From an uncultured Eubacteriales bacterium (GTDB lineage Bacteria; Bacillota; Clostridia; Christensenellales; Aristaeellaceae): a stretch of DNA of 38,169 nt. A model generated the notes under the pieces. It did no database searches and was not told the origin of the DNA. It was given only the letters and a program-made list of their open reading frames with translations. Numbering within the stretch: position 1 is the first letter of the stretch; every line of letters starts with the position of its first letter. This document shows positions 2,536 through 26,405 of this stretch, piece by piece. Location of the stretch: contig OMYT01000045.1 in the NCBI GenBank assembly GCA_900315315.1, positions 1-38,169 of the forward strand, in the 5' to 3' direction. The translations under genes were made by a program, and so were the position numbers.

Positions 2536-2638
2536 TTAGGGGGCTTTCCGAGTGCCCAGGGCTTCCGCCCGTTCTCTGCTGAGAAAGAGCCACTGGCTCT
2601 TTCTCCGGGCACGACGAACCCTCCTAAGACCCCTTCGG
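2536..2638 (+). repeat. Long-form pseudoknot-type intergenic element (copy 1)
   Basis: Starts 8 nt after the stop of the surface-protein gene. The outer arms TTAGGGGG and CCCTCCTAA pair with one mismatch. GTGCCC (2572 region) pairs with GGGCAC. Inside is a perfect 11-bp hairpin, GAGAAAGAGCC/GGCTCTTTCTC, with loop ACT (2581-2605). The conserved loop CTTTCCGAG precedes and CCCCTTCGG ends the element, so CCGA can pair with TCGG. It is one of four long copies in the window. Confidence 0.75.
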
Positions 2639-2658
2639 ATCCCAATAGTTAAACAGGA

Positions 2659-2692
2659 GTGGAGGACCAGGCGAGAGTCTGGTCCTCTTTCC
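2659..2692 (+). terminator. Hairpin, possible rho-independent terminator
   Basis: GAGGACCAG (2662-2670) and CTGGTCCTC (2679-2687) form a perfect 9-bp stem around GCGAGAGT, followed by only TTT. GTGG/CCAC could extend the stem. It lies between two pseudoknot-type elements, 130 nt after the surface-protein gene. The short T-tract makes terminator function uncertain. Confidence 0.5.
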
Positions 2693-2695
2693 ACC

Positions 2696-2733
2696 TCAGG
2701 GGGCTTTCCGATCGCCCCCTGAAACCCCTTCGG
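2696..2733 (+). repeat. Pseudoknot-type intergenic element (copy 2, short form)
   Basis: TCAGGGGGC pairs with GCCCCCTGA around the conserved loop TTTCCGATC. CCCCTTCGG follows. The stretch 2528-2862 therefore holds two elements of this family, one hairpin and about 130 nt of AT-richer leader for the next gene. I could not assign a convincing promoter in that leader. Confidence 0.75.
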
Positions 2734-2862
2734 TCGGATACTTACTTTTGGGAGATTTGGGTAGAGCTGCTTTCATAGCATTTTTGCAGGAAATGCGGAA
2801 ATAGATGTAGAAATAGTATAGATACGGAAAAGACTAACCTACCCTCAAGGAGGATGGTACAC

Positions 2863-4758
2863 ATGAAGAGATTTTTAGCGTGGACATTGGTTATTGTATT
2901 GCTGCTGGGGGTTATTCCGGCAGTGGCGGAGGAAGCCGACAAGTATGACAAGCTGACGGTATCGGTGACGACACCATTCAGCGGGAACTTCTTCTCCGAT
3001 GTTCTGGGAGGCAACATTTGTGACCAGGATATACGCAAGCTGATCCACGGATACAATCTGGTTTACTGGGACAACGAGACGGGCAGTTATCAATTCAACC
3101 CAAAGATCGTGAACGCGACGAGCGTGTCCGACGACGGGACGAGCTTTATCCTGGCGATTGCCGAGGAACTGACATACAACGACGGTACCCCGATCACCGC
3201 GAAGGACTACGCGTTCAGCCTGCTACTGCAGGGATCCCCGGAACTGCAGGAGGCAGCCGGGGGCAGAACGGATCTGAAGCGCATCTGGGGCGGACGCGAC
3301 TTTCAGGATGGAAAAACCGACGAAGTAAAAGGCATCCGGATCCTGGGCGATCATCAGTTCGCACTGACGATTGACCCGGAATATGTGCCTTATTTCTACC
3401 AGCTGAAAGCACTGGACGTATCCCCGCTGCCGATCTCTGTGATCGCGCCTGACTGCGAAGTGAGAGACAACGGGCAGGGCGCCTATATCGACGGCGATTT
3501 TACGGCGGAAGTGCTGGAAGAGACGCTGCTGGACCCGCTGAGCGGATACATGAGCCACCCGACAGTGACCAGCGGTCCCTACCAGATAACAAACTATGAT
3601 GAAAAAACGGTGCAACTTGAGCTGAATCCGAACTATGAAGGCGATGAGCATGGCGTGGTCCCTTCAATTCCGCACATCATTATCCAGGTGAGTGATCCGG
3701 ATAAGGTCATTGCAGACCTGGCGGGCGGAAAGACGGACCTGGTGGTCAGGTGCGTACGGTCGGAACAAATTATGGCTGGGATGCAGCTGGCGGCGACCGA
3801 CGACTTCGCCATGAAGGCTTACAGCCGGAACGGACTGAGCTTCATCAGCTTCTGCGCGGAGAAGGGCGCCACCTCAGACCCCGCCGTGCGCCGTGCACTG
3901 GCGATGTGCATCGACAGAGCGACACTGACAGAGCAGTACGCCGGGCAGTTCGGCCTGGCGGTCGACGGGCTTTACGGAATCGGCCAGTGGATGTACCTGA
4001 TGGCAAATGGGACGATGGTGCCGGAAGAAGGAGCCGAGGAAGAATGGGCCGACCTGAAGCTGGACGTCATTCCGAAATATGAATTTGATCCGCAGGCGGC
4101 GGCGAAGCTGCTGGAAGAAAACGGATGGGAAATGGACCGCGACGGCGTGCTGAGCAAGGCGATCGACGGAAAGGACGTTCACCTGCGCCTGAAGCTGATC
4201 TATCCGGAAGGGAACGGCGTGGGTCTCCTGCTGGAGCAGGTGTTTATCCCTTACCTGAACGAAGCCGGCATCGAACTGGAAACCGAAGCGATGCCGATGC
4301 CGGACCTGCTGAAGAAATACTACAAGCAGGAAGAACGGGACTGCGACATGATCCTGGTGGGAACCAACTTCGGCGACGTATACGACCCATCGGGGGAGTA
4401 CGACGACAACGGTACAAGCTACCTGACCGGAATCACAGATCCCGAGCTGCGGGAGCTGGCCATCAGCCTGCGCAGCACGGAACCCGGCAACGCGACAGAA
4501 TTCTGCCGGCGGTGGCTGGCATACCAGGCCAAACTGGCGGAGGTCGTGACGACCATACCGCTGTACAGCGACGCATACCTCGACTTCCATATTTCCGCAC
4601 TGCAGCAGTATGAACCGGGAGCGAGCGGAAGCTGGGCGACCGCCGTCACGGGTGCTATTTTGAGCGACTTTGTGCCTGAGGAAGAGCCGGAGGAAGAAGC
4701 CGGAGACGACTTCGAACTGGAAGGCGAAGGGCTCGAGGACCTGGAGGAACTTGAATGA
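2863..4758 (+). CDS. ABC transporter substrate-binding protein, family 5 (peptide type)
   Basis: Extracytoplasmic binding protein of the SBP_bac_5 (DppA/OppA-like) family, 631 aa. The start is the ATG at 2863, 9 nt after AAGGAGG; an ATG at 2854 overlaps that ribosome site and is rejected. A signal peptide (MKRFLAWTLVIVLLLGVIPAVA, residues 1-22, split here for description) fits signal peptidase I cleavage after AVA. There is no lipobox cysteine, which is unusual for a Gram-positive binding protein that must stay at the membrane. Family-like segments include LTYNDGTPITAKDYAFSL, SGPYQITNYDEKTVQLELN, and DPAVRRALAMCIDRATL. The C-terminus is a strikingly acidic tail (Glu/Asp-rich, last 28 residues). 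No permease or ATPase gene is adjacent. The stop codon overlaps the start of the downstream sensor/GGDEF gene by 4 nt (ATGA), so the two are translationally coupled. The ligand is unknown. Confidence 0.88.
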   Translation: MKRFLAWTLVIVLLLGVIPAVAEEADKYDKLTVSVTTPFSGNFFSDVLGGNICDQDIRKLIHGYNLVYWDNETGSYQFNPKIVNATSVSDDGTSFILAIAEELTYNDGTPITAKDYAFSLLLQGSPELQEAAGGRTDLKRIWGGRDFQDGKTDEVKGIRILGDHQFALTIDPEYVPYFYQLKALDVSPLPISVIAPDCEVRDNGQGAYIDGDFTAEVLEETLLDPLSGYMSHPTVTSGPYQITNYDEKTVQLELNPNYEGDEHGVVPSIPHIIIQVSDPDKVIADLAGGKTDLVVRCVRSEQIMAGMQLAATDDFAMKAYSRNGLSFISFCAEKGATSDPAVRRALAMCIDRATLTEQYAGQFGLAVDGLYGIGQWMYLMANGTMVPEEGAEEEWADLKLDVIPKYEFDPQAAAKLLEENGWEMDRDGVLSKAIDGKDVHLRLKLIYPEGNGVGLLLEQVFIPYLNEAGIELETEAMPMPDLLKKYYKQEERDCDMILVGTNFGDVYDPSGEYDDNGTSYLTGITDPELRELAISLRSTEPGNATEFCRRWLAYQAKLAEVVTTIPLYSDAYLDFHISALQQYEPGASGSWATAVTGAILSDFVPEEEPEEEAGDDFELEGEGLEDLEELE

Positions 4759-6680
4759 TCAACGGAAAACGCAGAACGATCGGCGTTTTCATGTGCAAGG
4801 CTTATTCCACGTTTGACAGCGCCGTGTTTCTCAGACTGGAAGAAGAGGCCAGAAGATTCAACTACGACATTATCATCTTTACAACTGTTGGCTATTTCGC
4901 GAGCCAGAACGACTACGACAGTCAGGAGCTGGGCATGTTTGCCTTTGCCCCGATGGAAGAGCTGGACGGGATCATCATCGTCCCGGATACGTATGAAATC
5001 CCGGGATTCCGGGAAAAACTGTTTGAGGAGATCCGGAGCAGGGCGCACTGTCCGGTGATCGCGATCCGCCACTACAGCGACGAGATCGACTGTGTCTATA
5101 CGGACCAGGGGAAGGCGCTGCGGCCGATGCTGCAGCACCTGATCAACCATCACAGGCTGAGGCGGATCGGCTTTCTGGCAGGATACAAGGGGCATCCGGA
5201 CAGCGAGCTGCGGCTGAACGTCTACCGGGAAGAGATGGCGGCGAACGGGATGATGGTGGACGAAGAAAAGGACATATGCCACGGGAACATGTGGCTGGAC
5301 TGCGGGGAGGCGGCATACCGGTTCTTTTTCTCTGATCCGGCGCGGCAGCTGGAGGCGATCGTCTGCGCGAACGACTATATGGCGGTCGGCCTGATGCGCA
5401 CGCTGGCGGAGCGCGGCATCGCGGTACCGAAGGACGTGATTGTGACAGGATTTGACAATGTGCCCACGGTGGCCATCTCGGTGCCGACGCTGACAACGGT
5501 GGAACAGGACTTCGGCCGGATGACCACCATCGCGATGGAGGAACTGGACCGGCAGATCCGGGAAGGCAAACAAAAAACGGACAGGAAAAACTTCAAAGCA
5601 GGCATGGCAGGGAAGATGGTCTGCGGCGAGAGCTGCGGATGCGGACGACGCGGGGAAGACTATTATGTTGAGCTGAGCGATTCGCGGAACCGGATGGTGG
5701 ACAGCATGAACGTGAGAGAGGTCGCGATGACCTACCTGACAATCGAGCTGAGCGCCTGCGACGACCTGAAAGACCTGCATGAGGTGCTGGTCCGGAAGAC
5801 GGACGACACACCAATGCTGCGGGACTATTACCTGTGCCTGTTTGAAAAGGGAAAGAACGAGAACGGGGAGCCGGTGTTCGCCGAGGAACTGACGGAGAAG
5901 ACGTGCCTGGTTCACGCGATGCGGGACAGGCAGGACCACGGGATGCCGATGATCACGTTTGACCGGAGCAGGCTGCTGCCGGAGATGGCGGAGCGGGCGG
6001 ACGAAGCGCAGGTATTCTACCTGATGCTGCTGCACCAGAAGGAGCAGTTCTACGGATACGCGATGTTCCACTACAACAAGGGGGAGATTCCGTCGACCTT
6101 CTTCCAGCACTGGAACGTGATCCTTTCCGGGGCGCTGAGCAACATGCACAAGCGGAACGAACTGATGGCCCTGTACGAGGAGCGGCGGCTGAGCAGCATC
6201 ACGGACGTGATGACCAGGCTGCTGAACCGGAGAGGGCTGGAGGAACAGCTGGCGCCGATCTGGCAGCGGCTGTGCAACGACCAGGAATCGGTCGCGTTTG
6301 TGTGCTTCGATCTGGACCACCTGAAGCAGATCAACGATCATTTCGGACACCAGGCCGGAGACTTCGCCATCCGGCTGACGGCCAACGCCATCCGGAAGGC
6401 CGCGCCAAAGGACGCGATTGTGGCGCGCATGGGCGGGGACGAGTTTCTGGCGGTACTGCCGGAAGCCAGCCAGGCGGGGGCGGACCGGTTTATTGCGGAA
6501 TTCAACAGGCAGATTGAGCTGCTGAACAGGGAAGAGGACCGCGCCTTCCGCGTGGAGGCAAGCTGCGGCGCGGTGGTATTCAGGCTGGATACGCTTTCCA
6601 CCATCGAAAGGTGCATCCGGAAAAGCGACGAGGAGATGTACCGGAAGAAGGAAGAGCGGCACGCCGGGCGGACGGAATGA
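4755..6680 (+). CDS. Periplasmic-binding-like sensor fused to GGDEF diguanylate cyclase
   Basis: The 641-aa protein joins a LacI/GalR-type sugar-binding fold (residues about 5-280) to a helical linker and a C-terminal GGDEF domain (about 475-635). The sensor has no helix-turn-helix, no signal peptide and no membrane segment, so it should act in the cytoplasm. Sensor landmarks are RTIGVFMCKAYSTFDS, RRIGFLAGYKGHPDS, AIVCANDYMAVGLMRTL and DVIVTGFDNVPTVA. The cyclase has the D-x-LT-like entry ITDVMTRLLNRRG and an intact MGGDEF near residue 560, so it should make cyclic di-GMP from GTP. The usual inhibitory RxxD site upstream of GGDEF is missing. Coupled by a 4-nt overlap to the upstream substrate-binding protein, it plausibly reports nutrient state; that link is inferred. 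A 747-aa antisense open frame here is only a shadow of GC-rich codons. Confidence 0.92.
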   Translation: MINGKRRTIGVFMCKAYSTFDSAVFLRLEEEARRFNYDIIIFTTVGYFASQNDYDSQELGMFAFAPMEELDGIIIVPDTYEIPGFREKLFEEIRSRAHCPVIAIRHYSDEIDCVYTDQGKALRPMLQHLINHHRLRRIGFLAGYKGHPDSELRLNVYREEMAANGMMVDEEKDICHGNMWLDCGEAAYRFFFSDPARQLEAIVCANDYMAVGLMRTLAERGIAVPKDVIVTGFDNVPTVAISVPTLTTVEQDFGRMTTIAMEELDRQIREGKQKTDRKNFKAGMAGKMVCGESCGCGRRGEDYYVELSDSRNRMVDSMNVREVAMTYLTIELSACDDLKDLHEVLVRKTDDTPMLRDYYLCLFEKGKNENGEPVFAEELTEKTCLVHAMRDRQDHGMPMITFDRSRLLPEMAERADEAQVFYLMLLHQKEQFYGYAMFHYNKGEIPSTFFQHWNVILSGALSNMHKRNELMALYEERRLSSITDVMTRLLNRRGLEEQLAPIWQRLCNDQESVAFVCFDLDHLKQINDHFGHQAGDFAIRLTANAIRKAAPKDAIVARMGGDEFLAVLPEASQAGADRFIAEFNRQIELLNREEDRAFRVEASCGAVVFRLDTLSTIERCIRKSDEEMYRKKEERHAGRTE

Positions 6681-6690
6681 GGAGAAGAAG

Positions 6691-7161
6691 ATGAAAAGAG
6701 CAGTCGGATTGCTGGTGTGCCTGATGATGCTTTTCGGGTGCGCAGCGGCGGAGCGGAGCGTGGAACTGCCGAACAGCCGGTATGTGATTGAAATTCCGGA
6801 CTGGATGCGCTACAGCGACGCGGAAGAGGAAGAAGAATATAACGGCGTGGAAGCCTATGTTTCCGAAATGCTGGAGATCGACTATACGTCCTATCCCAGG
6901 GCGACGCTGATCGGCGCCGGAGCAGCGGGATCACTGCGGGAGGTGGCGGAGGAGAGCGCCGCGAAAGGGAACGAGGTGGAACTCCGGAAGATCAACGGGA
7001 TTGAAATGCTGTGCTTCCGGACGATGGATGAGAGTGACAAGGCGCCGTGCATCGGGTATGTGTTTGAGGACGGGGATTGGCTGGTGGAGTTGGATTTCTG
7101 GTATTCGACCGAGGAGGCGGCTAATCTGACGACGCAGATTATTTCGTCAATTCACGAATAA
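6691..7161 (+). CDS. Small exported hypothetical protein
   Basis: The 156-aa protein starts at an ATG 10 nt after the previous stop, preceded by GAGGAGAAG. Its N-terminus is a clear export signal, with MKRAVGLLVCLMML followed by FGCAAAE. The cysteine at residue 17 could be a lipobox, although phenylalanine at -2 is atypical. Cleavage after AAA is the alternative. The mature part opens with VELPNSRYVIEIPDWM and an acidic EEEEE stretch and ends with a predicted amphipathic ISSIHE. I do not recognise a named family. Its position makes it the third gene of the substrate-binding/GGDEF operon, so it may be an extracytoplasmic partner. No terminator with a T-run follows; two pseudoknot-type elements do. 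Confidence 0.75.
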   Translation: MKRAVGLLVCLMMLFGCAAAERSVELPNSRYVIEIPDWMRYSDAEEEEEYNGVEAYVSEMLEIDYTSYPRATLIGAGAAGSLREVAEESAAKGNEVELRKINGIEMLCFRTMDESDKAPCIGYVFEDGDWLVELDFWYSTEEAANLTTQIISSIHE

Positions 7162-7165
7162 GAAT

Positions 7166-7257
7166 TTGGGGGGCTTTCCGATCGCCCCCCAAGCCCCCTT
7201 CGGGGATTTCGCGTCTGCGGACGCGACCAGGGCTTTCCGATCGCCCTGGACCTTCGG
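7166..7257 (+). repeat. Two tandem pseudoknot-type elements (copies 3a, 3b)
   Basis: Copy 3a (7166-7203) has stem TTGGGGGGC/GCCCCCCAA and tail CCCCCTTCGG. Copy 3b (7204-7257) has an extra upstream hairpin CGCGTC-TGCG-GACGCG (7210-7225), then CCAGGGC/GCCCTGG and tail ACCTTCGG. Both keep the loop TTTCCGATC. They sit between the stop of the small exported gene and the dnaE promoter. Confidence 0.75.
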
Positions 7258-7292
7258 CCGGTTGCCATGAATTATGCTATTTGGCGATCGGC

Positions 7293-7321
7293 TTTTTAGT
7301 GCGCGGAAAATATGGTATAAT
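7293..7321 (+). promoter_or_regulatory. Promoter of dnaE
   Basis: TATAAT at 7316-7321 is preceded by TGG, giving an extended -10. A weak TTTTTA -35 lies 17 nt upstream (7293-7298). Transcription would start near 7328, about 38 nt before the dnaE ATG. Confidence 0.65.
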
Positions 7322-7365
7322 TATAAGGATAAGGGGTTCTAACCCCATCGGGTGAGGTTGATGAA

Positions 7366-10300
7366 ATGAGTTTTACGCATCTGCATCTGCATACGGAGTA
7401 CAGCCTGCTGGACGGGGCTTGCCGGATTTCCTCTCTGGTGGAACGGCTGAAGGCCCTGGGCATGGATTCGTGCGCCATTACGGACCACGGGGTGCTTTAC
7501 GGCGCGATCGACTTCTATACGGCGATGAAGGATGCGGGGATCAAACCGATCATCGGGTGCGAAGCCTATGTATGCCGGGACCGGACAGACAAATCATTCG
7601 CAGGGCGGGAGAACAGCCATCTGATCCTTTTATGCGAGAACAACACGGGATACCAGAACCTGATGTACCTGATCAGCGAGGGATTCCTGACGGGATATTA
7701 TTACCGGCCGCGGATCGACTACAACCTGATCCGGGAGCACCACGAAGGGCTGATCTGCCTGAGCGCGTGCCTGAGCGGGGACTTGCCGAAGATGCTGCTG
7801 AACGGACAGGACGAGAGCGCCCACGCCTATGTGCGGGAGATGCAGGAGATCTTCGGGGAAAAGAATTTCTATATCGAGATCATGGATCACAACCTGCGGG
7901 AGGAGAAGACGGTCCTGCCGAGGCTGATCGCGCTGGCACGGGAAATGAACGTGCCGCTGGTGGCGACGAACGACTGCCACTACCTGGAGAAGAAGGACGC
8001 GCACGCCCAGGAAGTGCTGATGTGCATCCAGACGGGGAAGACGCTGGCGGATGAGCAGCGGATGCGCATGGAAACCAGCGAACTCTATGTGAAAAGCGAA
8101 GAAGAGATGCGGGCTGTGTTCCGGCAGGTACCGGACGCGATCGACCGGACGCAGGAGATCGCGGCGCGGTGCAACGTGGAATTCGAATTCGGCGTGACAC
8201 GGCTGCCGCACTACCCGGTGCCGGAAGGGGAGACGGCGAGCAGCATGCTGCGCCGCCTGTGCGGCGAGGGGATGGCGCGGCTGTATCCGGAAGCGGGGCC
8301 GGAGGACGAGCCCTACAAGCGGCTGGAGTATGAGCTGAGCACGATCGAACACATGGGCTATGTGGATTATTTCCTGATCGTATGGGATTTCATTCACTAT
8401 GCGAAGAGCCACGGGATCATGGTGGGGCCGGGGCGCGGGAGCGGAGCGGGCTCCATCGTGGCCTATTCCCTGGGAATCACGATGCTGGATCCGCTGAAAT
8501 ACCAGCTGCTGTTTGAACGATTCCTGAACCCGGAGCGGGTGACGATGCCGGATATCGACGTGGACTTCTGCTACGAACGGCGGCAGGAGGTCATCGACTA
8601 CGTGGCGCGGAAATACGGGGCGGACCACGTGAGCCAGATCATCACCTTCGGCACGATGGCGGCGAAGGGCGTGGTGCGCGACGTGGGCCGGGTACTCGGG
8701 ATGAGCTATCAGGAGACGGACGCGGTGGCCAAGGCGATCCCGTTCGACCTGGGGATGACGCTGAACAAGGCACTGAACCTTTCCCCGATGCTGAAGGAAA
8801 TGTACGACGGACAGCCGCGGGTGAAGGAACTGATCGACACGGCGCTGACGCTGGAGGGAATGCCGCGGCACGCCTCCACGCACGCGGCGGGCGTGCTGAT
8901 CACCGGAAAGCCGGTGGTCGAGTTTGTGCCGCTGCAGCGGAACGACGAAGTGATCACGACCCAGTATCCGATGGGAACGATCGAGCGGCTGGGCCTGCTG
9001 AAGATGGACTTTCTGGGGCTGCGGACGCTGACGGTGATCCGTGATACGCTGGACATGATGCGGGAGACCGGAGTGGACATGAAGCCGGAGGAGATCCCGC
9101 TGGACGACCCGCAGGTGTACGAGATGATCAGCCGCGGGGACACGGACGGCGTGTTCCAGATGGAAGGCGCGGGGATGACGGGCTTCCTGACGGCGATGAA
9201 GCCGGCCTGCTTTGAGGACATCATCGCGGCGATTTCCCTGTACCGGCCGGGACCGATGGAGTCCATTCCGCGGTACATCGCGGGGAAACAGGATCCGTCA
9301 AGCGTAAAGTACAAGACGGAGAAGCTGCGGCCGATCCTGGACGTGACGTACGGGTGCATGGTATATCAGGAGCAGGTGATGCAGATCGTGCGCGACCTGG
9401 CCGGATACAGCTACGGGCGGAGCGACCTGGTGCGGCGCGCGATGGCGAAGAAAAAGCACAAGGTGATGGAGGACGAACGCCGGATCTTTGTGCACGGGCT
9501 GGTGAACGAGCAGGGCGAGGTGACGGTACCGGGGTGCGTGCGCAACGGGGTGCCGGAAAACGTGGCCAACGAGATCTACGACGAGATGATCGCCTTCGCG
9601 AGCTACGCGTTCAACAAATCCCACGCGGCGGCATACGGCGTGGTCGCCATGCAGACGGCATGGCTGAAGAGGTATTACCCGGTGCAGTTCATGGCGGCGA
9701 TGCTGAACAGCGTATACGGCAACACGGGGAAGATCGCCGGATATATCCAGTACTGCCGGGGCCGGGGGATCCCGGTGATGCCGCCGAACATCAACCGAAG
9801 CCGCTGGAAGTTCACGGTGGACAAGAACGACGAGGGGAAGGACGGGATCCTGTTCGGCCTGGGCGCGATCAAGAGCGTCGGGGAGAACGCGGTGGCCTCG
9901 ATCATCCGGGAGCGGGAAGCCAGCGGACCGTACCGGGATATCTTTGACTTCTGCCGGCGGATCGATCCGACGGAATGCAACAAGCGGGTTGTGGAGAACA
10001 TGATCCGGGCCGGGGCATACGACACCCTCGGCGCAAACCGGCCGCAGATGCTGGCCGTGTATGAAGCCGCCATGGACGCCAACCAGGCGGAGAAGAAAAA
10101 GAACGTGAGCGGGCAGGTGAGCCTGTTCGACATGTTCGGCGGGGATGACGGGAAACCCTTGTTCGAAGCGGAAATGCGGCTGCCGGACCTGCCGGACTGT
10201 CCGGCAAGGGAAAAGCTGAACATGGAGAAGGATGCGGCCGGCGTGTATATGACCGGGCACCCGCTGGACGACTACCGGGAGGTGCTGAAGAGCCTGAACT

Positions 10301-10914: not shown

Positions 10915-11008
10915 GGATTTCGCGTCTGCGGACGCGACCAGGGCTTTCCGATCGCCAAGTCCCTCCGGGGGCCAAAGGGCTTTCCGATCGCCCTTTGGAA
11001 ACCTTCGG
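10915..11008 (+). repeat. Two pseudoknot-type elements (copies 4a degenerate, 4b)
   Basis: Copy 4a begins right after the dnaE TAG with the CGCGTC-TGCG-GACGCG hairpin and CCAGGGCTTTCCGATCGCC. Its 3' half is degraded (AAGTCCCTCCGG in place of the normal arm and tail). Copy 4b (10972-11008) is intact: CCAAAGGGC pairs with GCCCTTTGG and the tail is AAACCTTCGG. Confidence 0.7.
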
Positions 11009-11064
11009 CCGCAAATTTGATTAAGAACAGAAAATAATATTTTCGGATAAGGTTGATTTTGGAA

Positions 11065-11994: not shown

Positions 11995-12048
11995 GGATTT
12001 CGTGCCTGCGGGCGCGACCAGGGCTTTCCGATCGCCCTGGACCTTCGG
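11995..12048 (+). repeat. Pseudoknot-type intergenic element (copy 5)
   Basis: Begins directly after the TAG of the ATPase gene. The upstream hairpin here is CGTGCC-TGCG-GGCGCG, which keeps pairing through G-U changes relative to copies 3b and 4a. The core is CCAGGGC/GCCCTGG with tail ACCTTCGG. The ribosome site AAAGGGGG of the next gene follows within 10 nt, and tail CCTT could pair with it. Confidence 0.75.
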
Positions 12049-12068
12049 AGAAAGGGGGTTATAACTGC

Positions 12069-12776: not shown

Positions 12777-12777
12777 A

Positions 12778-12814
12778 CCAGGGGGCTTTCCGATCGCCCC
12801 CTGGACCCCTTCGG
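12778..12814 (+). repeat. Pseudoknot-type intergenic element (copy 6)
   Basis: Starts one base after the TGA of the permease gene. CCAGGGGGC pairs with GCCCCCTGG around TTTCCGATC, and the tail is ACCCCTTCGG. It is a clean reference copy of the short form. Confidence 0.8.
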
Positions 12815-15936: not shown

Positions 15937-16036
15937 GCGAGGGCTTTCCGAGTGCCCGGGGCTGCTGCCCGTTCTCTGCTGAAAACTGTCCACCGGACAG
16001 TTTTCCGGGCGCGACGAACCCCTCGCGCTCCTTCGG
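15937..16036 (+). repeat. Long-form pseudoknot-type element (copy 7)
   Basis: Begins one base after the DUF4340 stop. The outer arms GCGAGGG/CCCTCGC are perfect. GTGCCC/GGGCGC pair with one G-U. The inner 10-bp hairpin is AAAACTGTCC/GGACAGTTTT with loop ACC (15982-16004), different in sequence from copy 1 but equally paired. The tail CCTTCGG is followed by a T-rich stretch. Confidence 0.75.
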
Positions 16037-16637: not shown

Positions 16638-16644
16638 GAGGGGA

Positions 16645-16682: not shown

Positions 16683-16708
16683 ATGCTTGCTTGATGTGAG
16701 GATTAATA

Positions 16709-16773
16709 CCAGGGGCTTTCCGATCGCCCCTGGACCCTTCGGCCAGGGCTTTCCGATCGCCCTGGACCTTCGG
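16709..16773 (+). repeat. Two tandem pseudoknot-type elements (copies 8a, 8b)
   Basis: Copy 8a has CCAGGGGC/GCCCCTGG and tail ACCCTTCGG. Copy 8b has CCAGGGC/GCCCTGG and tail ACCTTCGG. They lie between rplQ and its terminator but read on the plus strand, antisense to the ribosomal transcript. Confidence 0.8.
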
Positions 16774-16795
16774 TCAGATACTGTTTATTCAGAAA

Positions 16796-17308: not shown

Positions 17309-17326
17309 GGGATTATCCCTCCTACA

Positions 17327-18274: not shown

Positions 18275-18312
18275 TTCGTTGTACCCTCCTCAATCGGGTT
18301 GTCGATTCATCA

Positions 18313-18909: not shown

Positions 18910-18927
18910 TTCTGTCTGTCCTCCTTA

Positions 18928-19329: not shown

Positions 19330-19398
19330 TGATTTTTCTCCCTCCGTAATGCCCGCTCAGTGGCGGGTACCATTCATTGAATGAAAGTTTGATGAAGA

Positions 19399-19727
19399 TT
19401 ACTTCGTGGCTTTCTTCTTGCCGGCGATGGTCTTCTTCGGGCCCTTCCGGGTGCGGGCATTCTGCTTGGTATTCTGTCCGCGAACGGGAAGACCGTGACG
19501 ATGACGGACGCCGCGATAGCAGCCGATTTCGATCAGCCGTTTGATATTGAGCGAAACTTCACGGCGAAGATCACCTTCGACCTTCAGGTTATGCTCAATG
19601 TATTCACGCAGCTTGCTGATTTCGGTCTCGGAGAGATCCTTTACCCGTGTGTCGGGATTCACACCGACTTCCGCGAGCATCTTCTGCGAATTTCTCTGGG
19701 CAGGTCAACACCTGCAATGCGTGCCAT
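19399..19727 (-). pseudogene. rpsM: 30S ribosomal protein S13 gene with apparent out-of-frame deletion
   Basis: The normal start is ATG 19727, 13 nt after a GGAGGTG ribosome site, and encodes [12 protein letters not shown]. The frame then runs into unrelated residues and stops at 19659-19661 after 22 codons. The rest of S13 continues in another frame from about 19689 ([19 protein letters not shown]) to the stop at 19399, with [25 protein letters not shown] intact. Compared with known S13, roughly 17 residues (the KRVEIGLTYIYGIG region) are absent. Only 2 nt remain between GAA (E12) and TCG, so I estimate a 49-nt deletion. S13 is normally essential, so this is either a sequence or assembly error or a real lesion rescued elsewhere. 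An internal ATG at 19680 would give a 93-aa protein lacking the first third. Confidence 0.85.
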
Positions 19728-19986
19728 TTACCTAATACACCTCCGTATGTTGTTTGACCTTTACGGTCAACCGGGAAAGAGTGTTCCGCCAGGGGCGAGG
19801 CAACCCAACCAGGCCGTGCGAAACGAATCTCTGCGCCGGCGCCCGGTGAAAGCAGGCGCACGACAACACTGACGGGCCGCTATGGAAGGTGCGGTCTGCC
19901 AGCGCCTAAAGAGACGGGGTTTGATTTCCCGCCGGAACACCCGTTTTTCAACGGATGCAGCCGCCCGACGACAAACCAGGGCTAAC
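19728..19986 (-). promoter_or_regulatory. Long 5' leader of the rpsM operon
   Basis: About 260 nt separate the predicted start of transcription from the rpsM ATG, with no infA or rpmJ gene in any frame. Visible pairing includes TTGACC-GTAAA-GGTCAA (around 19755-19771), shortly before the ribosome site, and GCGCC/GGCGC combinations near 19835-19860. Length and GC-rich hairpins suggest a ribosomal-protein autoregulatory leader. I cannot match it to a named family. Confidence 0.4.
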
Positions 19987-19992
19987 TCAGCC

Positions 19993-20021
19993 ATTCTATC
20001 ACAGCGGAGAAAAAATGGCAA
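19993..20021 (-). promoter_or_regulatory. Promoter of the rpsM-rplQ operon
   Basis: On the minus strand TTGCCA (20021-20016) and TAGAAT (19998-19993) are separated by exactly 17 nt, in an AT-rich upstream context. The alpha operon is thus detached from the S10/spc genes. Confidence 0.75.
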
Positions 20022-20065
20022 TGAAAATTTTAACAAAAGTATAAAATTTTCATTAAGAAATTAAG

Positions 20066-20236
20066 GGCTTCGCGCCTGCGGGCACGACCAAGGCTTTCCG
20101 AGTGCCCGGGGCTGCCGCAAGGAATCGCACGCGCACCGCGGCCGGTGTGCCGGCTCGCGCACCGCGCGCGGCATCGTTCAGCTGAAAACTGTCCACCGGA
20201 CAGTTTTCCGGGCGCGTCGAACCCCTGGACCTTCGG
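20066..20236 (+). repeat. Long-form pseudoknot-type element with GC-rich insert (copy 9)
   Basis: A leading hairpin like that of copy 5 (CGCGCC-TGCG-GGCACG, one mismatch) precedes CCAAGGCTTTCCGAG. GTGCCC pairs with GGGCGC, and AAAACTGTCC/GGACAGTTTT is shared with copy 7. A 47-nt GC-rich module (20127-20173) replaces the short spacer of copies 1 and 7. The tail ACCTTCGG ends at 20236, exactly where the TGA of the minus-strand GH43 gene begins. Confidence 0.75.
20127..20173 (+). repeat. 47-nt GC-rich module, copy A
   Basis: Matches 23338-23384 with a single difference (GCG versus GTG in the twelfth position region). The sequence is itself rich in inverted pairs of CGCGCACCG, CCGGTG and CGGCTCGCGC. 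Confidence 0.75.
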
Positions 20237-21655
20237 TCATTCCAGCGTAAATGAATTCAGGGCGGCGGAGCCGTGGCCGCGGTAGGTGAAGTAGAGAGCC
20301 TGAATGCCGTCGGGGATTTGGACTTCGGCTATGTATTTCGTCCAGACATTGGTAAACTCGACGGGAATGGTTGCGAGGACGGGACCATCCCAGGCGGTTT
20401 TGACTTCAAAGAAGCCGCCTGCATAGCCGCGAACTTCAATGGTGACAGAGGTGACGTCTTTGCAGTCGAAGTACTTGAAACCGCAGGTGGCGCTGTCGGT
20501 CATGTTCATGATATATCCCTGCTCTTCATCACCGTCCCTGCCGTCCTGGGTGATCCGGGGGAAGGTGCCGTCCAGCCAGAAACCTTTGCTGCCGGGTCCT
20601 CCGGAATAGGGCCGCTCTTCATCTGTGAAGAGATTGCAGGCGATATAGGCAGGGTAGGTGCCTCTGCCCTTAAGCGGTCCGCCGTTCAGACCGCAGGACG
20701 TCATTTCTGCCTGCGGGATTGTGCCGTCGGGCAGGAGGGTGATTTCCTGGGCCATGCCCTGGCGGCTGAAGGTGGTGCCGTCGGTCTGACGATGATAGAA
20801 GATATAGGTTTTCCCATTGATCTGCACCAGGCCCCCATGGTTGTTTCCGCCATAGTACATCGGTTTTTCCGCGGGCTTATAGGAAGAGATTCCGATGTCG
20901 TTGTTGCTGACGATCACGCCGCGATAGGTGAAATCCCGGTCCGGGAAGCGGCTGGTCGCGTAGCAGAGTTCATGCATGACAACGGAAGAATATACAAAGT
21001 AGTAAAGATCGCCGAATTTCCGGATGGAAGAGGCTTCAAAGAACTCATGTCCTTCGTAGCCAGAACCTTCGCTGTAGGGCTTGCTCGGCATGATAAAGAC
21101 GGGTTCCTGTTCGATGGTCAGCATGTCTTCCCCCAGCAGGGTGCACATCGGACCGTGACGCGTGGCATCAAAGGGAGAACAGAAACCGGTATAAAGCCAG
21201 GTTTTACCGTTTTCTGTCAGGACACCCGGATCGAACTGCGGCTCGTCTCCTTCGCGGTGACCGAGGAGATTTCCGTCCCGGTCGTGTACGTGGCCGTAGA
21301 ACTCATATTTGCCGGCAGGCTGATCACAGACGGCAACGGCAACGGTGCACTCTTTGTCCAGCACATAATACAGGTAGTAACGGCCATCCGGACCGCGGGT
21401 GACATCCGGGGCGTAAAGGCAGGCACGGCCGAAGGGGTTATCCGGGTCGTCCGTCTTTTTATAAATTACGCCCTCATACCGCCAGTCGGCCAGGTTGTCC
21501 ACCGGCGCGGACCAGCAAACGTAATCATTCAGGCAGAAGACATGACCGCGAAAACGGTCGTGGGAGCCGTAGACATAGAGGCGGCCGTCGAAGATGTGGG
21601 GTTCGCCGTCGGGAGTGTATTCCCAGGAAGGAAGGTAGGGGTTGAAGGCTTGCAT
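20237..21655 (-). CDS. Family 43 glycoside hydrolase with C-terminal CBM6-like domain
   Basis: The 472-aa protein has the five-bladed GH43 landmarks. An early aspartate lies in PHIFDGRLYVYGSHD, YAPDVTRGPDGRYYLYY supplies the central region, and HEFFEASSIRKFGDLYYFVYSS contains the likely acid glutamate. GGNNHGGLVQINGKTYIFYHRQ follows. The last 120 residues (from about 350, YIMNMTDSATCGFKYFDCKDV to ALNSFTLE) look like a CBM6-type beta-sandwich. The family cleaves arabinose- or xylose-containing plant polysaccharide fragments; the exact bond is not predictable. There is no signal peptide, so it probably acts on imported oligosaccharides. ATG 21655 follows AAAGGAG. A 9-bp inverted repeat around TATAAT upstream suggests repressor control. 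Confidence 0.9.
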   Translation of the reverse strand: MQAFNPYLPSWEYTPDGEPHIFDGRLYVYGSHDRFRGHVFCLNDYVCWSAPVDNLADWRYEGVIYKKTDDPDNPFGRACLYAPDVTRGPDGRYYLYYVLDKECTVAVAVCDQPAGKYEFYGHVHDRDGNLLGHREGDEPQFDPGVLTENGKTWLYTGFCSPFDATRHGPMCTLLGEDMLTIEQEPVFIMPSKPYSEGSGYEGHEFFEASSIRKFGDLYYFVYSSVVMHELCYATSRFPDRDFTYRGVIVSNNDIGISSYKPAEKPMYYGGNNHGGLVQINGKTYIFYHRQTDGTTFSRQGMAQEITLLPDGTIPQAEMTSCGLNGGPLKGRGTYPAYIACNLFTDEERPYSGGPGSKGFWLDGTFPRITQDGRDGDEEQGYIMNMTDSATCGFKYFDCKDVTSVTIEVRGYAGGFFEVKTAWDGPVLATIPVEFTNVWTKYIAEVQIPDGIQALYFTYRGHGSAALNSFTLE

Positions 21656-21666
21656 TGAGGGGGCTC

Positions 21667-21696
21667 CTTTACAATTATTATAAAAATATTGTAAAG
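21667..21696 (-). promoter_or_regulatory. Operator-like inverted repeat over the GH43 promoter
   Basis: CTTTACAAT and ATTGTAAAG are perfect 9-nt arms around an AT core that contains TATAAT on the minus strand. The right arm runs into the AAAGGAG ribosome site. The -35 is weak. A repressor would cover both the -10 and the start of transcription. Confidence 0.55.
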
Positions 21697-21701
21697 GGTA
21701 A

Positions 21702-23302
<1,601 letters not shown>

Positions 23303-23310
23303 CAAAGAGT

Positions 23311-23482
23311 ATTTCGCGCTTTCGGGCGTAAGGATATGCACGCGCACCGTGGCCGGTGTGCCGGCTCGCGCACCGCGCGCGGCAGGACCAGGGCTTTCCT
23401 GCCCAGGGCTGCCGCCCGTTTTTTACTGAAAACGGGCACACTGGCCCGTTTTCCGGGTGTGCGAAACCCCATGAACCTTCGG
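23311..23482 (+). repeat. Long-form pseudoknot-type element (copy 11, rearranged)
   Basis: The 47-nt module here precedes the core instead of sitting inside it. The core is CCAGGGCTTTCCTGCCC, so the CCGA loop is lost. The inner hairpin is GAAAACGGGC/GCCCGTTTTC (23428-23453), again a fully paired sequence different from the other copies. The tail ACCTTCGG directly joins AAGGAG, the ribosome site of the next gene. Confidence 0.7.
23338..23384 (+). repeat. 47-nt GC-rich module, copy B
   Basis: 46 of 47 bases match 20127-20173. Here the module is upstream of the CCAGGGCTTTCC core, showing that it moves independently of the element. Confidence 0.75.
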
Positions 23483-23497
23483 AAGGAGTCTTTGCTG

Positions 23498-24076
23498 ATG
23501 GGAGAGCGGACTTATAAGGCGGCGTGCGGGCTGTACCGTGCCTTTTCCCGGAAGATGAACGTTGAATGGACGGAACCTTTTGAGAAGGGTCCGTGCGTGT
23601 TCGTCGTCAACAACGCGGGTGTTGCCGGCGCGATTGAGATGATGGCCCGGTTTCCGGAGAAAGACAAAATTCACCCCTGGATTCTGGAAGAAATGTTAGA
23701 GAAACGGGAGTATCCGATTCCTCCGGCAATCCTGAAAGGGACGCCATATATTCCCGTATACCGGGACCAGCGGTTTATCCTGACGCTGAGACAGAGCATC
23801 CGGGTTCTCCAGAAAGATCACTATCTGTTGATCTTCCCGGAGCAGACACCCGGCGGCCGGGAAACGCACCAGTGGATCAACACCGGCTGGCTGCGGCTCG
23901 GGGAGATGTGGTACAGGGCCAGCGGCAGATCGCTGAAGATGTATCCTGTGCATGTGGATAAAGACAAGCATCTGATTAAGGTTGCGGCACCGGTGAGATA
24001 TGATCCGGCGAGAAGATTCAGTGAGCAGGAAAAAGAACTGGTGGAGAAGCTTTCCGCCGGGTTGCGCGGGGAATGA
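23498..24076 (+). CDS. Degenerate lysophospholipid acyltransferase (PlsC-like)
   Basis: The 192-aa protein starts at ATG 23498, 9 nt after AAGGAG; the longer frame to 23336 is encoded by the repeat element and is rejected. The fold resembles glycerophospholipid acyltransferases. CVFVVNNAGVAGAIEMMARF occupies the place of the usual NHxxxxD block, LKGTPYIPVYRDQRF the second block, and YLLIFPEQTPGG the FPEGTR block. The catalytic histidine and aspartate of the first block are missing (NNAGVAG), so ordinary acyl transfer is doubtful. There is no signal peptide or strong membrane helix. Function is unassigned; it may bind lipid without catalysis. Confidence 0.65.
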   Translation: MGERTYKAACGLYRAFSRKMNVEWTEPFEKGPCVFVVNNAGVAGAIEMMARFPEKDKIHPWILEEMLEKREYPIPPAILKGTPYIPVYRDQRFILTLRQSIRVLQKDHYLLIFPEQTPGGRETHQWINTGWLRLGEMWYRASGRSLKMYPVHVDKDKHLIKVAAPVRYDPARRFSEQEKELVEKLSAGLRGE

Positions 24077-24078
24077 AC

Positions 24079-24115
24079 AAGGGGGCTTTCCGATCGCCCC
24101 CTTAAATCCCTTCGG
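24079..24115 (+). repeat. Pseudoknot-type intergenic element (copy 12)
   Basis: Two bases after the stop. AAGGGGGC pairs with GCCCCCTT around TTTCCGATC, with tail ATCCCTTCGG. It is followed 25 nt later by a TGAGTCA palindrome in the same arrangement as copy 13. Confidence 0.75.
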
Positions 24116-24140
24116 CCCGGATTTCATACTTGATTGTAAA

Positions 24141-24173
24141 AATGAGTCAGTAGGTGGGCCCAGTTAACTCATT
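24141..24173. repeat. TGAGTCA palindromic repeat, copy 1
   Basis: AATGAGT and ACTCATT arms surround CAGTAGGTGGGCCCAGTTA. It is preceded by TACTTGATTG, as is the copy at 26431. The TGA in the right arm, read on the minus strand, is the stop codon of the next gene. Confidence 0.65.
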
Positions 24174-24789
24174 TAAGGGTGTCGCGGCAAAGAATGCGGA
24201 GAAATTTCAGGGCATTTTCTTCATTGGCGCTGGTTACGGGAATACAGAGATAACCGTCCGTTGCGTAGGCATACTGACTGAGACCGGGAACCTTGTTCTG
24301 CGGGATACCGCAGAGATGGCTTTCCCCGGTTTCGTTGTCTTTTCTCCAGCCGTTCTGCAGGTTGATGCCTGCCTGATCGAAAAGCGCCATCAATTCCTTG
24401 TCATTTTCCAAGGGCAGCAAGGAGCCCTGTGCGGCTAAAGTGACAAATTCATCCCGAGACAGGAGGTAAACATCTCCCTCACTTGCGGCCATATAGGTCA
24501 TCAGCTGCATCGGTCCGTAATAACTGTCGTTCATCAGCTGAAGAGGCGTCATAACTTCCATGTCTTCCATTTCGGTGGTGCGTACTTTTTCCATATAGGT
24601 AGTCAGCTTTTCCTGTTCCATCATGCCGTAAACATAGAATTCCACTTTTTTGTTTGCGGGGGAACGGTAAGCGGTCATTGTATAAAGAAGATCCACAAGA
24701 CCGAAGGCAATCAGGGCAACCAGCAGATACTTCCACCAGCTGTAAGCAAAATGCTGCTTCAGGGTCTTTGAATTGAGCGGTGTGTTCAT
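24169..24789 (-). CDS. Membrane-anchored extracytoplasmic protein, hypothetical
   Basis: The start is ATG 24789 (MNTPLNSKTLKQHFAYSWWKY) after GAGGAGA, giving 206 aa. One N-terminal helix (YLLVALIAFGLVDLLYTMTA, about residues 20-39) leaves a domain of about 165 residues outside the cell. Its middle, YMAASEGDVYLLSRDEFVTLAAQGSLLPLEN, resembles the lobe of extracellular solute-binding proteins that lost most of the fold. No cysteine lipobox is present. The last lysine and the stop are encoded by a palindromic repeat, so the original C-terminus may differ. No family name is assigned. Confidence 0.7.
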   Translation of the reverse strand: MNTPLNSKTLKQHFAYSWWKYLLVALIAFGLVDLLYTMTAYRSPANKKVEFYVYGMMEQEKLTTYMEKVRTTEMEDMEVMTPLQLMNDSYYGPMQLMTYMAASEGDVYLLSRDEFVTLAAQGSLLPLENDKELMALFDQAGINLQNGWRKDNETGESHLCGIPQNKVPGLSQYAYATDGYLCIPVTSANEENALKFLRILCRDTLK

Positions 24790-24991
24790 GGGTGATGTCT
24801 CCTCGGTTCGGCCGTCATGTGAAAGTATAAGGGAACGATAATGGAAGGATAGCACGGAAAAAGGGGAATGGCAAGGGGAAGGCTTTTTGGCGAGAAGCAG
24901 GAAAAAGGGAAGCGAAAGACGAAATAAAGACATGGAATGAAAAAAGACGTTGATAGCGACCAGACCATGTAATGAAAGGAAGGTTTTTTGT

Positions 24992-25639
24992 ATGAAGAAT
25001 CAGCCGATCATCACCATCGGGCGTCAGTATGGGTCCGGGGGACGCTATGTGGCAAAACTGCTGGCGGAAAAAATGGGAATACCTTACTATGATAAAGAAT
25101 TGCTGACGGAGGCATCCAAGGACAGCGGGATCTGCAAGGAACTGCTGGAGAGCTATGATGAAAAACAGGGAAAGAATCTGCTCTTCTCTCTGATCAGCGG
25201 GTCGCAGGTCCGTGCCGAGCCCGGCTCCATGTATATGGATATGCCGCTGAATCATAAGATTTTCCTGGCTCAGTTCGATACCATCCGCAGAATTGCCGAC
25301 GAAGGGCCCTGCGTCATTGTCGGCCGCTGTGCGGACTATGTACTGCGGGATCATGAGAATGTAATCAACGTTTTCATCAAGGCCGGCACAGAGCAGCGGA
25401 TTAAACGCATCATTAAATACAACGGCGCGGATCCTGTGCGGGCGGAGGAAATCCTTAAAAAGGCTGACAAGCAGCGCGCTTCCTACTATAATTATTATGC
25501 CACGGGTACGTGGGGGGATATCAGCAACTATGACCTTTGCGTGGATACCGGTACGCTGGGTATCGAAGGCTGCGTGGACCTGATCTGCAAATGCGCAGAA
25601 GTCAAAGCAAACTTCACGGGAGAAGAAGAGGAATGGTAA
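24992..25639 (+). CDS. Cytidylate kinase-like protein
   Basis: The 215-aa P-loop protein starts at ATG 24992 after AAAGGAAGG. The N-terminus PIITIGRQYGSGGRYVAKLLAEK is the diagnostic start of the cytidylate-kinase-like family (PF13189 type), which is common in Clostridia and distinct from Cmk. YYDKELLTEASKDSG and CVIVGRCADYVLRD follow, and NVFIKAGTEQRIKRI is the lid region. It probably phosphorylates a nucleotide, but substrate specificity in this family is not settled. It overlaps the next gene by 7 nt (ATGGTAA), so the two are co-translated. Confidence 0.85.
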   Translation: MKNQPIITIGRQYGSGGRYVAKLLAEKMGIPYYDKELLTEASKDSGICKELLESYDEKQGKNLLFSLISGSQVRAEPGSMYMDMPLNHKIFLAQFDTIRRIADEGPCVIVGRCADYVLRDHENVINVFIKAGTEQRIKRIIKYNGADPVRAEEILKKADKQRASYYNYYATGTWGDISNYDLCVDTGTLGIEGCVDLICKCAEVKANFTGEEEEW

Positions 25640-26394
25640 AGCGTCTGCTGGCATTGCTCGCGGCAGCGCTGCTTCTGCCGGGAACGGGAATGGCATCTAT
25701 CGCCTGGCGGGAGAAAACCCCTGCACAAAAGCTGTTGAAAACCTATATTGAGAATGTAAATATCTTTCTGGTCGAACAGGGAGAACAGGAAATCAATACC
25801 TGCTTTGAGATGTATGACCAATTGGTGGTGCTGGGAATCACGTCCGCGCCGAATGCGGAAACGCCGGAGGGCATGGAGATTACCGCAAAGCTGTATTATG
25901 ACAGTATCAACTCAATTGAGATTCGCGTTGACGAAATTGAACGTTTCCCGGTAATCGCCGGCGCTTTCATCCGGGCATTGTATCCGGAAAGCATGAGTGC
26001 GGAAGCGGCAATGAAGGCACCAGCAGACAGGGCAAAGCTTGCACTGGAGAATCCGGAGAACTCGTTTGTGGACGAAGTGGAGGAGCTGAACGGCACCGTT
26101 CCGCGAACGTATTATGCCTATCTCCCGGATCAGTATCATGACGGAGTCAACTGGATCCAGCTGACCATTATCTTCCCGCTGGCGGGATACTGGGAACCGA
26201 ACGGGACCATTATTGACGGGGCAACGCCGACGAAGGCACCGGATGTTACCAGCGACCACGATCCGGAGTATGAGGGGTATTACTCTCAGGACCCGTATCT
26301 TCATTATGAGTTCTTTATCACACCGACGCCGGAACCGGACTCGCCGGCGGGGGAAGAGGAAACTGGGTTAGGGGGCTTTCCGCTCGCCCCCTAA
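25633..26394 (+). CDS. Secreted hypothetical protein with repeat-encoded C-terminus
   Basis: ATG 25633 overlaps the stop of the kinase-like gene, and GAAGAAGAGG precedes it. The 253-aa product has a signal peptide (MVKRLLALLAAALLLPGTGMA). The mature domain includes KLLKTYIENVNIFLVEQGEQEINTC, then MEITAKLYYDSINSIEIRVDEIERFP, and VNWIQLTIIFPLAGYW. A Pro/Thr-rich segment (TPTPEPDSPAGEEE) follows. I do not know the family. The last nine residues (GLGGFPLAP) and the stop come from a pseudoknot-type element, so the ancestral stop was probably lost when the element arrived or the two have co-adapted. Confidence 0.7.
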   Translation: MVKRLLALLAAALLLPGTGMASIAWREKTPAQKLLKTYIENVNIFLVEQGEQEINTCFEMYDQLVVLGITSAPNAETPEGMEITAKLYYDSINSIEIRVDEIERFPVIAGAFIRALYPESMSAEAAMKAPADRAKLALENPENSFVDEVEELNGTVPRTYYAYLPDQYHDGVNWIQLTIIFPLAGYWEPNGTIIDGATPTKAPDVTSDHDPEYEGYYSQDPYLHYEFFITPTPEPDSPAGEEETGLGGFPLAP

Positions 26395-26405
26395 GACCCC
26401 TTCGG
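26368..26405 (+). repeat. Pseudoknot-type element overlapping a CDS end (copy 13)
   Basis: TTAGGGGGC pairs with GCCCCCTAA and the tail is GACCCCTTCGG. The loop is TTTCCGCTC, so the CCGA/TCGG pairing is weakened in this copy. TAA in the right arm is the stop of the secreted protein. It is the last copy in the window. Confidence 0.75.

Follow-up and report, generated by a model that had tools for sequence, protein, structure and literature searches.

A dispersed intergenic element of Clostridia and their phages, predicted to fold as a pseudoknot whose tail follows its own stem

We describe a family of short intergenic elements found in a contig (OMYT01000045.1) from the draft genome of an uncultured Eubacteriales bacterium (G000; 4.26 Mb, 197 contigs). 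Throughout, the window refers to this whole stretch of 38,169 nucleotides (nt). The short form of the element is supported as an H-type pseudoknot whose arms and loop change in step with one another, and its tail follows the purine arm of the stem in parallel. Copies are carried by related genomes and by phages, and in most of the species analyzed they share one strand relative to replication. The reading that we favor, at a probability of about 0.45 and thus somewhat short of even odds, is that this is a nonautonomous mobile DNA element resembling repetitive extragenic palindromic (REP) sequences, which would fold as a pseudoknot and move as single-stranded DNA at replication forks.

Two helices and a parallel tail

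From 5′ to 3′, the short form consists of a 5′ arm (outer bases, a G-run, and C), the loop TTT-CCGA-TC, a 3′ arm (G, a C-run, and outer bases), a linker, and TTCGG. The original prediction, made from the letters of the window alone, proposed an H-type pseudoknot with covarying stems, in which the loop CCGA would pair with TCGG of the tail. Both helices were borne out on a much larger number of copies. For the first helix, we used the 308 of 449 distinct loop hits that have at least 6 consecutive Watson-Crick pairs, leaving out the 141 that are shorter. Mean stem length in these 308 copies was 8.35 bp and fell to 5.01 bp (maximum 5.19, 200 shuffles) when right halves were exchanged between copies, so that the stem is matched copy by copy. 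The second helix changes in step as well. With any tail base allowed, a GCGA loop was accompanied by a TTCGC tail in 31/31 distinct copies, which come from other species of the genus (21), other genera (3), named contigs (2), and phage contigs (5). A CCGN loop was accompanied by TTCGG in 381/397 distinct copies; four had another last base and 12 had no TTCG within reach. Both loop/tail variants occur inside one genome (L281 of G052, L284 of G026). With the strands ordered S1 5′, S2 5′, S1 3′, S2 3′ and compensatory change in both helices, the covariation supports an H-type pseudoknot for the short element. A UUCG tetraloop hairpin was rejected as an account of the tail, because the change from TTCGG to TTCGC where the loop is GCGA would break its closing pair.

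Our results also reveal a relation between the tail and the stem. The tail run (CCCC, CTCC, and others) is parallel to the 5′ purine arm and tracks its sequence one base at a time. Specifically, G-runs of 3, 4, 5, and 6 accompany C-runs of 2, 3, 4, and 5 in 140, 33, 91, and 15 copies; 20 of 299 copies fall outside these four classes, three of which (two G, one C) still obey the n−1 rule. When an A stands within the G-run, the C-run is interrupted at the mirrored place, as in CCAGAGGGC/ACTCC, CTGAGGGGC/ACTCCC, and TCCGGAGGGC/CCTCC. Across 90 distinct arm/tail combinations, a parallel register shifted by one, which skips the loop-proximal G, matched at 348 of 407 positions, compared with a mean of 295.7 and a maximum of 306 in 300 shuffles, while shifts 0 and 3 stayed within the shuffles. 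The same register stood out when the data were split into five separate sets with 500 shuffles each: our own genome (180/214 = 0.841; shuffle mean 0.747, maximum 0.784), other species of the genus (144/171 = 0.842; 0.679, 0.764), other genera (60/79 = 0.759; 0.646, 0.740), named contigs of unknown genus (105/128 = 0.820; 0.697, 0.756), and held-out phage contigs with 22 combinations unseen in the genomes (86/110 = 0.782; 0.626, 0.718). The rule had been formed on bacterial genomes and was afterwards applied to the phage contigs. Parallel shifts 0 and 2 exceeded the shuffles in no set. Antiparallel pairing of the tail with the 5′ arm was tried in three registers and six sets and rejected, as none exceeded the shuffle maximum and one tied with it. 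Finally, opposite an arm A, the 19 genomic combinations have 15 tails with T and 4 with A, the 12 viral combinations have 6 of each, and C or G never occurs there.

This parallel relation is what a pyrimidine third strand (C+.G-C, T.A-T) on a purine arm is expected to look like. H-DNA and telomerase-type pseudoknots contain intramolecular pyrimidine triplexes in which the third strand runs parallel to the purine strand. Our element shares with them the strand order S1-S2-S1′-S2′, the parallel direction, and the placement of C beside G and T beside A, with A-for-T exceptions. On the sense strand, then, one helix would join the two arms (the 5′ arm being outer bases, G-run, and C), a second would join CCG(A) of the loop to (T)CGG of the tail, and the C/T linker would run along the purine 5′ arm, parallel and in register, setting C against G and either T or A against A. 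Judging by the sequences, the third strand may bind physically, through Hoogsteen contacts. Such triplexes and pseudoknots are typically single genes or simple mirror repeats, and a dispersed family with many covarying versions is not known among them. Covariation of three strands over approximately 100 distinct natural stems is unusual evidence for triple-helical contact, and the natural stem variants could serve directly as a library in tests of permitted triples.

Matched arms could also be a by-product of DNA repair, with template switching or gene conversion perfecting palindromes and no selection acting on the fold. The outer 5′ arms are possibly host DNA (at some sites the outer three bases belong to the host, for instance to a stop codon), yet the three bases before the G-run fully match the 3′ arm in 43 of the 75 copies in our own genome that lack a 5′ hairpin, where 8.0 would be expected. 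Copies that appear recombined in the loop exist too. Repair of this kind leaves both the joint change of loop and tail and the parallel arm/tail relation unaccounted for, and we consider it an improbable explanation of the family.

Copy number, strand orientation, and insertion sites

The element is abundant in its host. With up to two mismatches, the core GGGCTTTCCGAKYGCCC had 284 matches in the whole draft genome, compared with one for a reversed control pattern. At one mismatch, it was found in 29 of 45 genomes of the genus, our own included, and in 44 of 150 genomes drawn from the family, where copy number reached 439 per genome (G140, 439; G068, 291; G076, 112). A scan of named genomes returned at least 113 loci, and the 80 listed were mostly rumen and gut Clostridia metagenome-assembled genomes. 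Among these 80, the tail was present in 59 of 66 loci with Clostridia in the title and in 0 of 14 loci from other taxa, so the latter are likely chance matches. In the viral collection, 49 of 53 matches had a tail-like motif, one of which (L393) has the core stem at most. Proteins were scanned from six viral contigs, including L362, which is outside those 49: 8 of 10 matched phage families, and all six contigs had virion or tail proteins. The phage contigs (L358-L410) hold many new arm sequences, and 48 of the 53 fetched stretches contain a single exact core. The context of open reading frames (ORFs) on viral contigs was set aside because gene calling was too crude. The original prediction did not recognize the family, and neither does Rfam: a search of the window returned no family at gathering score, and in a search of three stretches, two tRNAs stood above threshold and the element had no match at gathering score. 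Below threshold in those three stretches were Plastid-ycf2, lying over a tRNA, and PhotoRC-I (22.8 bits versus 45, E value 0.13), which overlaps one copy. Literature searches, at the level of listings, gave no text with the motif or a similar element, and some papers share the short tail string alone.

Copies within one stretch mostly share a direction, with mixed directions in only 1 of 60 stretches that hold at least two copies (in G026). We counted nine species of the genus, in stretches chosen because they hold copies, and the orientation of 221 of 239 copies matches the sign of GC skew in the stretch concerned, which places them on the G-rich strand. In six of these species, 194 of 198 copies lie on that strand (G000, 136/139; G030, 24/25; G021, 6/6; G008, 18/18; G018, 6/6; G025, 4/4), and G024, G026, and G016 depart from it. 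A looser pattern gave 167 hits, and the four on the minority strand (L154, L173, L174, L190) fail the stricter pattern used for counting. G is in excess over C on the lagging-strand template, and replication direction in these drafts was inferred from skew alone. Of 22 copies in our own genome whose two neighboring genes are both directed against the fork, 21 follow the fork. Orientation in our own genome thus follows replication and not gene direction, which fits folded DNA better than RNA. A role as transcription terminator was rejected on the same grounds. With the sense strand on the lagging-strand template in most species, the element most likely moves as exposed, folded, single-stranded DNA, and its one-way orientation suggests that an enzyme spreads it in that form. 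We therefore take DNA as the probable active form.

An RNA element would be either a regulatory structure in 3′ untranslated regions or an RNA copied by reverse transcriptase in the manner of short interspersed nuclear elements. The complex pseudoknotted fold with its compensatory changes, the covarying long form described below, and the position of some copies agree with such a role: 24 of the 75 hairpin-less copies in our own genome begin no more than 6 nt from the stop codon of a codirectional gene, eight of them directly. Reverse transcriptases, too, are somewhat commoner in carriers (7/13) than in genomes without copies (3/13). Yet the two richest genomes, G140 and G068, lack any reverse transcriptase match, as do G177, G087, G075, and G113; Rfam had no match at gathering score, and orientation in our own genome tracks replication. 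We consider an RNA element quite unlikely. The original prediction had pointed to RNA probing; its structured fold stands, and the orientation agrees better with DNA than with RNA as the active form. Counts of G.T versus A.C mismatches were dropped as a test for RNA because the counted cells extend past the stem.

Selection could instead maintain the orientation of a polar chromosomal site, comparable to the FtsK-orienting polar sequences (KOPS), Chi, or a primase signal. The 221 of 239 copies on the G-rich strand are what such a site would show. Nevertheless, G016 and part of G026 run opposite, no match at one mismatch was obtained in 16 of the 45 genomes of the genus, sites differ between close species, and other genera have inverted pairs. 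Together, these observations make a polar site very improbable.

Comparison of sites points to mobility of the copies. We compared our own intergenic regions with those of four other species (80 pairs, with the relatives' stretches picked around their copies), and 25 of 30 comparisons between a copy-bearing region and a relative were empty in the relative. Sites were shared in 5/30 versus 3/50 comparisons (P = 0.14, two-by-two table), which is not above expectation. The closest relative, G030, lacks the insert downstream of both rplQ and guaB; downstream of rplQ, a degenerate copy is present in a further species, G042. The insertion at 26368 in the window took the place of the last part of a reading frame, which terminates at TAG in G030 and inside the element here. 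Seen at 26340-26405, the C terminus of the upstream protein is altered, and the frame now ends in the 3′ arm. As to insertion 3′ of one fixed short target, the rule for IS200/IS605 elements, the left neighbors of copies vary, with TAA the commonest. A profile of the left flank has one strong position, the A adjoining the G-run.

Known mobile elements and the search for an enzyme

REP sequences, together with bacterial interspersed mosaic elements (BIMEs) and REP doublets forming hairpins (REPINs), are short intergenic palindromes that occur in hundreds of copies and are regarded as mobile in the form of single-stranded DNA, with TnpAREP, the REP-associated tyrosine transposase (RAYT) (PMC8266576, PMC6006769). 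Our element is likewise a short intergenic palindrome with hundreds of copies, present singly or in inverted pairs. Unlike REP, a simple hairpin, it has a pseudoknot and a parallel tail. It also differs in having no GT[AG]G at the 5′ foot of the palindrome, as judged from the left-flank profile, and no match to a Y1 transposase in the genomes with the highest copy numbers. Because it departs from REP in these respects and has no transposase of its own, we place it as a variant of the broader kind that includes REP and miniature inverted-repeat transposable elements (MITEs).

The ends of IS200/IS605 elements offer a second comparison. In IS608, the flanks of a subterminal hairpin (5′ and 3′) and the cleavage site form base triplets, which are also described as joining guide, 3′ flank, and target; the guides are tetranucleotides outside the hairpin, insertion occurs after TTAC, and the element encodes TnpA (PMC5934647). 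These triplets are the nearest precedent found for a tail that reads a stem. IS200/IS605 elements use the lagging-strand template (PMC6006769), and that preference is common to both systems, as would be a contact of the triplet kind, at the subterminal hairpin there and in the tail following the stem here. Unlike IS608, our element has a tail that follows the whole purine arm and has no transposase of its own.

These likenesses raise the question of whether the family is simply a REP or BIME moved by a RAYT Y1 transposase, or an IS200/IS605 end moved by TnpA, with a gene that is missing from the drafts or belongs to the past. High copy number, intergenic placement, palindromy, BIME-like inverted pairs in other genera, and a strand preference like that of IS200/IS605 are all in keeping with this view, as are Y1 genes or fragments in our own genome (fragments), G030, G101, and G113. 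Against it, there is no Y1 match in the top-copy genomes G140, G068, and G076, nor in six other carriers (G058, G127, G177, G087, G052, G075). These carriers are drafts, 85 to 97% complete, so absence is weak evidence for one genome and firmer across several. Conversely, the Y1-rich genomes G168 (9 matches), G002 (4), and G007 (4) hold one copy or none, and the left flank offers an A next to the G-run in place of the GT[AG]G foot. We regard mobilization by a known Y1 enzyme as unlikely. The original prediction set its structured element against a known transposon-derived DNA repeat; a mobile DNA repeat is indeed what the data suggest, and none of the known transposase families examined explains its spread.

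The other enzyme families tested did not explain its spread either. IS91 and IS110 transposases were both absent from G140, G068, G076, G058, G101, and G052; an IS91 match occurred in G008 only, and IS110 occurred in some carriers (G000, G030, G008, G127) and some noncarriers. The integron integrase, considered for a comparison with attC sites, was above its curated cut-off in 0 of 28 genomes. Among 51 ORFs flanked by copies, no gene recurred; there were four small clusters, the largest being one stretch fetched four times. As a separate observation, a tyrosine recombinase model gave matches below cut-off in 25 stretches of G000 (contigs C46, C69, C76, C87, C139, and others), compared with 2 to 11 in 27 other genomes.

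We infer a mobilizing enzyme and its chemistry. In the mechanism that we envisage for a mobile, pseudoknotted DNA element, the folded sense strand would be exposed on the lagging-strand template at replication forks. A candidate enzyme would recognize the knot and paste the element elsewhere on the lagging-strand template, as with IS200/IS605 ends. Insertion would be mostly into intergenic DNA and partly straight after stop codons. There is also a real chance, although we hold it to be the lesser one, of a new class of single-stranded DNA mobile element in bacteria and phages, in which the mobile form would be a triplex-stabilized DNA pseudoknot with a self-read stem, served by a new enzyme family. 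Joint change of all three strands would then let many stem sequences be tolerated. G140 and G068, which hold hundreds of copies and gave no match to Y1, IS91, IS110, or reverse transcriptase, are a defined place in which to search for a new strand-transfer enzyme. More generally, a REP-like family with a strong one-strand preference and no REP transposase in its richest hosts reopens how bacterial intergenic repeats spread.

Several observations weigh against a mobile, triplex-forming DNA element. No mobilizing gene was found in the searches of transposases, reverse transcriptases, integrases, and flanking ORFs. Target duplications are unconvincing, with direct repeats at 0.30 versus 0.17 in shuffles at score 14, and the strongest cases are tandem arrays or neighboring copies. 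Strand preference is not universal in the genus (G024, 7/9; G026, 20/27; G016, 0/5), and other genera often have inverted pairs of both orientations with a GC skew too weak to test the lock. Regarding the tail, shift 2, which neighbors the favored register, equals its shuffle maximum in the test of 90 combinations, and in earlier, less clean sets one of nine antiparallel tests topped its maximum (0.623 versus 0.621). The presence of A besides T opposite an arm A means that the third-strand rule is not strict. Furthermore, the linker of a usual H-type pseudoknot crosses the minor groove, where the C.G-C/T.A-T code is not expected, and this counts against a simple major-groove triplex.

Two features of arrangement can be added here. 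The five exceptional copies of G016 all lie on one 35-kb contig (L443, L444; G016:C59). Outside the genus, many inverted pairs stand about 140 nt apart, including 40 in the "+−" arrangement at 120 to 160 nt (loci partly overlapping). The inverted pairs inspected in G140 and G068 (L036, L056, L070, L091, L094, L104) combine two different arm types, for example CCAGAGGGC with CCAGGGGC or CCAAAGGGC with CCAGGGGGC, and their spacer is alike between copies.

Copies in the window and their long form

The original prediction put the family at 16 copies or more, and all 16 are present in the window, 12 short and 4 long, with the arm pairs TCAG/CTGA, TTGG/CCAA, CCAG/CTGG, CCAAAG/CTTTGG, AAG/CTT, and TTAG/CTAA as listed. 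The common loop that it described, CTTTCCGATC, had 16 matches with at most one mismatch (10 exact; mean 3.87, highest 8 in 100 shuffles), 11 of them inside copies and 5 elsewhere, and its CCTTCGG tail had 27 matches on both strands (mean 7.14, highest 15 in shuffles). Three details needed revision. Of the copies called degenerate, the one at 21715 is so, while position 10915 opens a separate 5′ hairpin (~10915-10937), and the copy proper, also degenerate, begins at 10938. At 26368, CCGA is absent as stated, but CCG is kept, as CCGC. The third concerns the long copy at 23388, whose letters are given below.

All features are on the plus strand. The first short copy (2696..2733) has arms TCAGGGGGC and GCCCCCTGA and tail AACCCCTTCGG. 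It is followed by one at 7166..7203 (arms TTGGGGGGC/GCCCCCCAA, tail GCCCCCTTCGG) and one at 7227..7257 (CCAGGGC/GCCCTGG, tail ACCTTCGG), to which a 5′ adjunct hairpin at 7204..7226 belongs (GGATTTCGCGTC TGCG GACGCGA). The adjunct hairpin at 10915..10937 adjoins the stop codon of the gene for DNA polymerase III alpha; next come the degenerate copy (10938..10969) and a copy at 10972..11008 (arms CCAAAGGGC/GCCCTTTGG, tail AAACCTTCGG). Another adjunct hairpin (11995..12017) precedes the copy at 12018..12048, which again has arms CCAGGGC/GCCCTGG, and the copy at 12778..12814 has arms CCAGGGGGC/GCCCCCTGG and tail ACCCCTTCGG. At 16709..16742, next to genes on the minus strand, a copy with arms CCAGGGGC/GCCCCTGG and tail ACCCTTCGG stands in tandem with a CCAGGGC copy (16743..16773) whose site is empty in G030. 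The degenerate copy at 21715..21746 is upstream of guaB. The last two short copies are at 24079..24115 (arms AAGGGGGC/GCCCCCTT, tail AAATCCCTTCGG) and 26368..26405 (arms TTAGGGGGC/GCCCCCTAA), the latter inside the last codons of a gene and at a site that is empty in G030. A further repeat with an inverted repeat, ATACTTGATTG..AAAAATGAGTCA, lies 3′ of these two copies (~24126-24175 and ~26415-26470) and is missing in G030 together with the copy at 26368. Elsewhere, tandem arrays and single copies at L181:4123-4330, L184:14716-14850, and L186:13891 have arms seemingly from different subfamilies and look recombined in the loop.

The four long copies contain an inserted domain. The copy at 2536..2638 has the outer arm TTA, a G5 stem, and the domain within its loop, and the copy at 15937..16036 has the arm GCGAGGGC and tail GCTCCTTCGG, with T opposite the arm's A. 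The third (20088..20236) has two guest modules and an adjunct hairpin at 20064..20087, with adjacent genes on the minus strand. The fourth (23388..23482) reads CTTTCCTGCCC and has lost CGA from the loop; the interval from guaB to the next gene is approximately 200 nt shorter in G030. A pattern search in stretches from G000 and G030 gave 24 long copies, which we aligned. Pairing in the stem GAAAAC..GTTTTC reaches 99.6%, and 6 of its 11 pairs show changes on both sides. A further helix crosses the GCCC/GGGC pairing and varies at two pairs (CG 18, UA 6; GC 14, AU 7, with 3 unpaired), and 13 of the 24 copies lack pairing at one position of this helix. Overall, there were 80 cells with changes on both sides, compared with 28.0 in shuffles, and the number of further pair types was not above shuffles. 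The hairpin variants may have been exchanged as entire modules, and these cells therefore do not count as independent events. RNAalifold gave a nested alternative for the same alignment, with GTGCCC paired with GGGCRY, so that more than one topology fits the long form.

The inserted domain, GGGCTGCCGCCCGTTC..CTGAAAACNGTCCACNGGACNGTTTTCCGGGCG, lies at approximately 2552-2619, 15952-16019, 20103-20221, and 23400-23466 in the window. It is a guest, because it occurs outside the core too, including in relatives without core matches (G007, G060). Plasmids of Rhodobacterales have a diverged form, which in some places falls within an annotated gene (DUF6330); loci of the domain elsewhere are L416, L420, L421, and L411-L415. 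A second GC-rich module, CACGCGCACCGCGGCCGGTGTGCCGGCTCGCGCACCGCGCGCGGC (~20127-20173 and ~23338-23385), stands in the loop of long copies or just 5′ of them and is present in several other loci too.

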